A stretch of DNA of 64,000 bases. Source: an uncultured SAR116 cluster alpha proteobacterium (GTDB lineage: Bacteria > Pseudomonadota > Alphaproteobacteria > Puniceispirillales > Marisalimonadaceae). Position numbers and translations under genes: made by a program. The first letter of the stretch is position 1; every line of letters starts with the position of its first letter. Under the pieces are notes generated by a model. It saw only the letters and a list, made by a program, of their open reading frames with translations, made no database searches and had not been told where the DNA came from. Shown in pieces: positions 8,085 to 9,432 of the stretch. The stretch is from positions 1 to 64,000 of the forward strand of contig CACBDG010000005.1 of NCBI GenBank assembly GCA_902537945.1, written 5' to 3'.

Positions 8085-8453
8085 ATGAATAAAAATATTA
8101 TAGGTATTAATGGTTGTGTAAAAGATTGTCATGAAGCAGCTGTAAAGGGTGGTTGGTGGCATGATGCTGAAGGAAAAAAAAAAGATAGAAACGTTGGAGA
8201 ATTATTGTGTCTAATACATTCAGAAATAAGTGAAGCTATGGAAGGTGCAAGAAAAGGATTAATGGACAATCATTTAAAACACAAATCAATGATGGAAGTT
8301 GAACTGGCTGATGCTGTCATTCGGATATTTGATCTAGCTGAATCTAGGAGTTTTAACTTAGGTGAAACAATTTATGAAAAATTAGAGTATAATAAGTCTC
8401 GAGCAGATCATAAACTTACAAATCGCCTTCAAGAAGGTGGAAAAAAATTTTAG
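8085..8453 (+). CDS. MazG-like nucleotide pyrophosphohydrolase
   Basis: ELLCLIHSEISEAMEGARKG...MMEVELADAVIRIFDLAES (ExxE...ExxD pattern). Confidence 0.75.
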   Translation: MNKNIIGINGCVKDCHEAAVKGGWWHDAEGKKKDRNVGELLCLIHSEISEAMEGARKGLMDNHLKHKSMMEVELADAVIRIFDLAESRSFNLGETIYEKLEYNKSRADHKLTNRLQEGGKKF

Positions 8454-8496: not shown

Positions 8497-9432
8497 ATGA
8501 AAACACAAATTCCAAACATAATGTCAATTGATGATCATGTTATAAAAATTAATTTGGCCAAAAACAAAGTCAAAAACAGTATATTTGAGATGGCTGATGC
8601 AATAACAAATGCTTTGAATCAGTTAGAAAATAGACAAGTTGAGTTAGCTCAAAAGCTTGGGATGTCAAAAGGTACTCTTTCAAAATGGCATTCAATTGGT
8701 TCCAATAATAATATAATGGGAATCAGAGAATTAGCGCCTCCATCATTTGATTCATTATATCAATTGAGTGTTTTAGACAATCAGTATTACAAATATTATG
8801 GAAAAGAAAAGGGAGGTAAAAAGTTTATTAAACTTTTTAAAAACAAAGTTGTAACTCCTTTGTCTCAAAGGAATGATATAAATAAAATTATAAAATTGCA
8901 TAAACAAAAAATTAATCCTCAAAATTTTGAGACTAAAGTTTTAGATAATAAAAAATTTAATTCAGAAATTAAGCTAAGCATTTTAGTTAAATCAAAATTA
9001 TACTTTAATACTATTATTATTATTCCATCAGATAATCAGCTTGATAAATGGAAAAATGTTTCCTCTATTAAAGATATAAATTTTGATTATCCAATTCGTA
9101 GTTTAGAAGGTTTAGATAAAAATATTTTCCAACAATGCCTAATTAAAGTTAAGGCTAAACATATTGATATTTCTATTAATTGTTTGAATTCATGGGGATA
9201 TAAATACAATAGGATAATGGCTCCCAGACAGCCAAAAAGTGGTCTTGTCGATTTGTCATCTAAATTTGTATTAGTTGTTGGGTCAAAAGGATTATCAAAG
9301 AATAACAGATTAACAATAAAATCAGATCAGAGCGCTGATTTAATATATTATGCTAAAAAGACAGGAAACAGCCCCTTTTTATTTATAGGCGAAGTTGTTA
9401 ATGAAAAAAATTGGATGTACTGTATTAATTAG
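8497..9432 (+). CDS. HTH protein with degenerate MT-A70-like domain
   Basis: N-terminal VELAQKLGMSKGTLSKWHS HTH; C-terminal DYPIRSLEGL, LNSWGYKYNRIM, FVLVVGSKG, LFIGEVVNEKNWMYCIN resemble MT-A70 motifs; no DPPW. Confidence 0.5.
   Translation: MKTQIPNIMSIDDHVIKINLAKNKVKNSIFEMADAITNALNQLENRQVELAQKLGMSKGTLSKWHSIGSNNNIMGIRELAPPSFDSLYQLSVLDNQYYKYYGKEKGGKKFIKLFKNKVVTPLSQRNDINKIIKLHKQKINPQNFETKVLDNKKFNSEIKLSILVKSKLYFNTIIIIPSDNQLDKWKNVSSIKDINFDYPIRSLEGLDKNIFQQCLIKVKAKHIDISINCLNSWGYKYNRIMAPRQPKSGLVDLSSKFVLVVGSKGLSKNNRLTIKSDQSADLIYYAKKTGNSPFLFIGEVVNEKNWMYCIN

Follow-up and report, generated by a model that had tools for sequence, protein, structure and literature searches.

A helix-turn-helix protein with a degenerate MT-A70-like domain as a putative DNA-binding regulator in SAR116 bacteria

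The window, that is, the whole 64,000-nucleotide stretch of DNA analysed here (forward strand of contig CACBDG010000005.1 of an uncultured SAR116 cluster alphaproteobacterium, assembly GCA_902537945.1), contains at positions 8497-9432 of the plus strand an intact open reading frame with an ATG start that encodes a protein of 311 amino acids. The translation agrees with the protein that a first-pass annotation, made from the sequence alone, had quoted for this frame and had read as a helix-turn-helix (HTH) protein with a catalytically dead MT-A70 methyltransferase domain. The locus and the regions of its product are composed as follows.

8085..8453, plus strand: phage-type MazG-like NTP pyrophosphatase, 122 amino acids, 43 nt upstream of the HTH gene
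8497..9432, plus strand: HTH-pseudo-MT-A70 gene, 311 amino acids, resident and syntenic in SAR116
8584..8916, plus strand: predicted N-terminal all-helical DNA-binding domain, residues about 30-140 (AF2 helices)
Residues 29-68: HTH, with the recognition helix at about 58-68 (HTH_3 and ParB-HTH matches; invariant GM..TLS.W..IG)
8974..9429, plus strand: degenerate MT-A70 domain, residues about 160-311 (Foldseek, hhalign)
9022..9033, plus strand: lost DPPW position, residues 176-179 (I-P-S-D); D, second P and W each gone in 19/19 members

The MazG-like gene that had been noticed just upstream is genuine and of phage type, its product matching the phrog_5658 pyrophosphatase with an E-value of 2e-56 and phage pyrophosphatases with 50-57% identity over most of its length; no significant match to this protein was obtained in Pfam. 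The MazG-like gene and the HTH gene are probably transcribed together on one transcript. No conserved palindrome or operator was found in an alignment of the regions upstream of the HTH gene.

In the genus of the window, 29 out of 40 genomes carry the gene, and in every genome whose flanking regions were inspected it sits in the same place. Throughout 29 resident loci (28 from the genus and one from a sister genus) it is located downstream of the MazG-like gene, with an extra gene in between in the sister-genus locus L086, and AtuA follows downstream in 28 of them. The 11 genomes of the genus without the gene equally lack detectable MazG and AtuA, and an Nth orthologue was not found in them, the Nth matches being distant (23-35%); since these neighbours are also missing, the region has probably simply not been assembled, although a subclade might conceivably have lost it altogether. 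Relatives within SAR116 share between 97 and 28% identity. A search of 385 genomes sampled from the class gave no full-length relative outside the order. Pattern scans of viral contigs, made with the family and also with two divergent paralogues from mobile islands, likewise yielded no relatives, and neither did tblastn searches of phage records or a search of plasmid records with one of the island paralogues. The frame at 8497-9432 is a genuine ORF under purifying selection, with dN/dS values of 0.11-0.22 for most pairs and of 0.39 for the closest pair, in which changes are few. In closely related pairs, dN/dS is lower for the N-terminal than for the C-terminal domain, which is thus the less constrained of the two. 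Recent pseudogenisation was considered and rejected because of the low dN/dS and because nearly all ORFs are intact.

An HTH domain is present in the family. The HTH_3 profile matches all 14 members tested with a best E-value of 6e-5, the window protein itself falling under the cut-off, a ParB-type HTH matches 10 of the same 14, and the AlphaFold2 (AF2) model of this region is helical. The N-terminal HTH proposed in the first-pass annotation thus finds support in weak but consistent profile matches together with the helical model, and the sub-threshold matches suggest that the protein binds DNA.

The C-terminal half shows its relationships only remotely, such that structure or profile-profile methods are needed for their detection. 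Searches of Pfam, NCBIfam, PADLOC and PDB sequences gave no MT-A70 match; Pfam returned solely weak HTH matches for the window protein, and, at E-values up to 10, PF05063 was neither one of the families to which the window protein showed a match nor one of the 25 most matched families. On the other hand, all 50 PDB matches listed for the AF2 model of the window protein (pLDDT 73.6, 14-sequence alignment) are MT-A70 structures, namely Tetrahymena MTA1 and human METTL14/METTL3. A second AF2 model, made for the G042 island paralogue (28% identity with the window protein), likewise retrieved MT-A70 structures only among its 50 matches listed, with best Foldseek E-values for the two models of 1.6e-5 and 2.4e-5. 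The confidence of both models is modest (pLDDT 74-75, pTM 0.45-0.46), and the two jobs are not fully independent, as they have most alignment rows in common. The best viral Foldseek matches are phage IME4-type MT-A70 proteins (E 6.7e-6); the viral matches span 340-373 columns and one of them is ParB-like.

Profile comparison points in the same direction. Against 29 genuine alphaproteobacterial MT-A70 proteins, hhalign scored 44.9 with the full profile and 43.8 with the C-terminal part, for which 60 shuffles reached a maximum of 19.4; with a larger alignment the score was 44.7, and none of 150 column shuffles exceeded 25.2. The alignment is collinear from DPPW through the C-terminal W, and the motifs that the annotation had quoted as MT-A70 landmarks sit where it had placed them, with YP, WGY and GSKG of the family pairing with Y, WGF and G-x-[RK]-G of MT-A70. 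Structure prediction and profile-profile search, the two tests by which the annotation had proposed to refute its reading, have both led to MT-A70 and so upheld it, the former for two divergent members and the latter with a score above all shuffles. A C-terminal domain unrelated to MT-A70, its likeness being generic to Rossmann-like folds, would fit the lacking Pfam match and the moderate model confidence; with two models that retrieve no other methyltransferases across all PDB matches listed, and with a collinear profile alignment between DPPW and the C-terminal W, this reading is largely refuted and very improbable. By predicted fold and by profile, the C-terminal domain is homologous to MT-A70.

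Its active-site residues have been lost. In the profile alignment, YFNTIIIIPSDNQ aligns at DPPW, with D, P, P and W opposite I176, P177, S178 and D179, respectively. The reference set for kept and lost residues comprised the positions with at least 85% conservation among the 29 MT-A70 enzymes. The family has kept positions that appear scaffold-like, that is, the first P of the motif, Y198, W233-G234, G249, G265, S276 and W306, among which Y198, G234, G265 and W306 are found in 19/19 members and W233 in 18/19. Among those lost in 19/19 are D, second P and W of DPPW and the W of the following strand, equally W105/K107, E128, E180, F182 and R184 (L096 numbering). Of HSxKP, H and P are found in 0/19 members and K in 8/19, the Arg of ELFxR is found in 0/19, and the protein chain stops short of the GN[QE] motif. 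In METTL3, Asp395 of DPPW, His512, Lys513, Arg536, Asn549 and Gln550 contact substrate or SAM (PMC5023411); by our own matching of sequences, these contact residues would correspond to HSxKP, ELFxR and GN[QE]. As model confidence is modest and the last 13 C-terminal residues are unreliable, the pocket was judged by sequence and not by coordinates, and by this measure it is lost, with neither the ELFxR Arg nor GN[QE] remaining. The absence of DPPW, stated earlier for the window protein, extends to every relative found, and the proposed search for orthologues retaining the motif has retrieved none among them.

A new conserved motif, P-[STL]-x-x-Q-[LI]-x-x-W, occupies the former DPPW place, which indicates a site remodelled rather than randomly decayed and might speak for a still active methyltransferase or a SAM-binding sensor with an unusual site, P-S-x-x-Q instead of DPPW. 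However, the SAM contacts (Arg, HSxKP) and the GN[QE] ribose contacts are gone, the chain stopping before GN, and we consider such an enzyme or sensor improbable; the protein most probably lacks SAM binding.

Two divergent paralogues are located in mobile islands that also encode a recombinase or integrase, namely L088 in genome G033, which has a resident copy besides, and L123 in genome G042. Both are flanked by a class-I methyltransferase and a C5-cytosine DNA methyltransferase, the C5 enzyme of L088 bearing a PP-loop domain, and the cassette genes are tightly packed or overlapping. Counterparts of the island methyltransferase, the PP-loop protein and the C5 enzyme, with 29-42% identity, form a module in the cyanophages S-B05 and S-CRM01, and no HTH protein is annotated between the module genes in these two phages. 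The module is common to cyanophages and SAR116 islands, the PP-loop protein being missing in some, and may make a hypermodified cytosine. This cassette setting ties the family to DNA modification; in contrast to the idea in the first-pass annotation that the protein might sense or compete at adenine-methylation sites, it points to cytosine rather than adenine methylation, and it suggests that the HTH protein participates in control or targeting of DNA modification. In a tree, resident copies cluster apart from island copies, a split that is tentative because the branches of the island copies are very long. That the resident locus might be left over directly from the cyanophage module was considered and dropped, as the MazG-like protein of the window gave no alignment to the pyrophosphatase of the module. 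Furthermore, a CcrM-size N6/N4 DNA methyltransferase, by size and conservation putatively CcrM, is nearly universal in the relatives, which makes a crosstalk of the HTH protein with adenine methylation possible.

Compared to known systems, the family shares with bacterial and phage IME4-like MT-A70 enzymes (PF05063) the fold and the order of landmarks (motif IV strand, Y, WGF, G-x-[RK]-G, S, C-terminal W), but lacks DPPW, HSxKP, ELFxR and GN, has an N-terminal HTH added and matches at no curated cut-off; the window protein is not a member of these enzymes. ParB-HTH-MT-A70 fusion proteins of phages, archaea and some bacteria (for ParB-MT-A70 fusions see PMC12704722) similarly have a ParB-like HTH followed by an MT-A70 domain, and the ParB-like phrog_4715 matches the N-terminal half of an island paralogue (E 1.9e-6). 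In contrast to these fusions, the family is devoid of the ParB NTPase-like N-terminus, and an alphaproteobacterial fusion at L094, its ParB part judged by eye, retains the DPPW that the window protein lacks.

In its mode of working, the protein may be likened most to METTL14 and MTA9, inactive partners with an eroded active site, EPPL and NALW, respectively, at the DPPW position, and yet a conserved MT-A70 fold (PMC5023411, PMC9852454). The window family differs from them in being bacterial, in having its own HTH domain and in a further changed motif (IPSD-type). A dead subunit of this kind, supplying DNA recognition to a catalytic MT-A70 protein or another methyltransferase encoded elsewhere, would agree with the structural likeness of the predicted C-terminal domain to METTL14 and MTA1 and with the position of the island copies between two methyltransferase genes. 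However, neither a catalytic MT-A70 partner nor any MT-A70 protein above the PF05063 cut-off was found in 136 genomes of the order, many of them incomplete, which disfavours a pairing of the METTL14 type with an active MT-A70 protein, although partners of another kind are conceivable. The island cytosine and class-I methyltransferases belong to classes different from MT-A70, for which we know of no pairing with MT-A70 domains, and a search of the window's genome (about 75% complete) did not reveal the class-I methyltransferase of the cassettes. Overall, a METTL14-like subunit seems rather unlikely.

The reading as a DNA-binding pseudo-methyltransferase put forward at the outset is supported by predicted fold, profile and the lost DPPW, and we assign a probability of roughly 0.72 to a protein with HTH and dead MT-A70 domain that acts as a DNA-binding regulator or scaffold and not as an enzyme, with regulator or targeting subunit as the most likely role of the family. 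The chain would consist of an N-terminal ParB/XRE-like HTH domain, a linker and a degenerate MT-A70 domain that retains the Rossmann-like core but, devoid of catalytic DPPW and SAM contacts, would not methylate. Site-specific recognition of DNA would fall to the HTH, and the dead domain may mediate dimerisation, contact nucleic acids or bind a partner, as in METTL14 and MTA9. In the mobile cassettes, the HTH protein might regulate or target the adjoining DNA-modification enzymes, and the resident SAR116 copy might have been retained as a regulator or scaffold next to the phage-type NTP pyrophosphatase. More tentatively, these proteins may constitute a prokaryotic class that arose in phage-related modification cassettes as targeting or control subunits and later became fixed in SAR116 chromosomes as a stand-alone regulator, a bacterial parallel to METTL14/MTA9 that combines DNA reader and dead writer in a single chain.

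Inactive MT-A70 proteins are familiar from eukaryotes, where they partner m6A and 6mA writers, and in the part of the literature covered, no description of a bacterial HTH-pseudo-MT-A70 protein was found. If the preferred reading holds true, the MT-A70 fold would have found another use outside eukaryotes, as a module for binding DNA or proteins, and an abundant marine lineage would possess a regulator of a new type with a link to DNA modification.

Some minor observations concern the islands and individual loci. The class-I methyltransferase/PP-loop (asparagine-synthase-like)/C5 module is located at L088:7057-11046, L123:8107-10877, L190:4989-7611 and L189:6052-7889. Adjoining the methyltransferase cassette of the G042 island, L123:624-7347 contains resolvase, integrase, DnaK-like, TerB-like and M48-like peptidase genes (named by eye). 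As a probe, phrog_4715 was discarded, as nearly every genome was matched, apparently through ordinary chromosomal ParB. The resident orthologue L071 of genome G023 has an internal TAA after residue 235 that removes the last quarter, either a sequencing error or a decaying copy. Downstream of the gene, a TTTCTCAYGAGAAA-type palindrome followed by a T run, common to several lineages and not seen in the window, is present in L075, L076, L082, L083, L085 and L086 and is a likely terminator.
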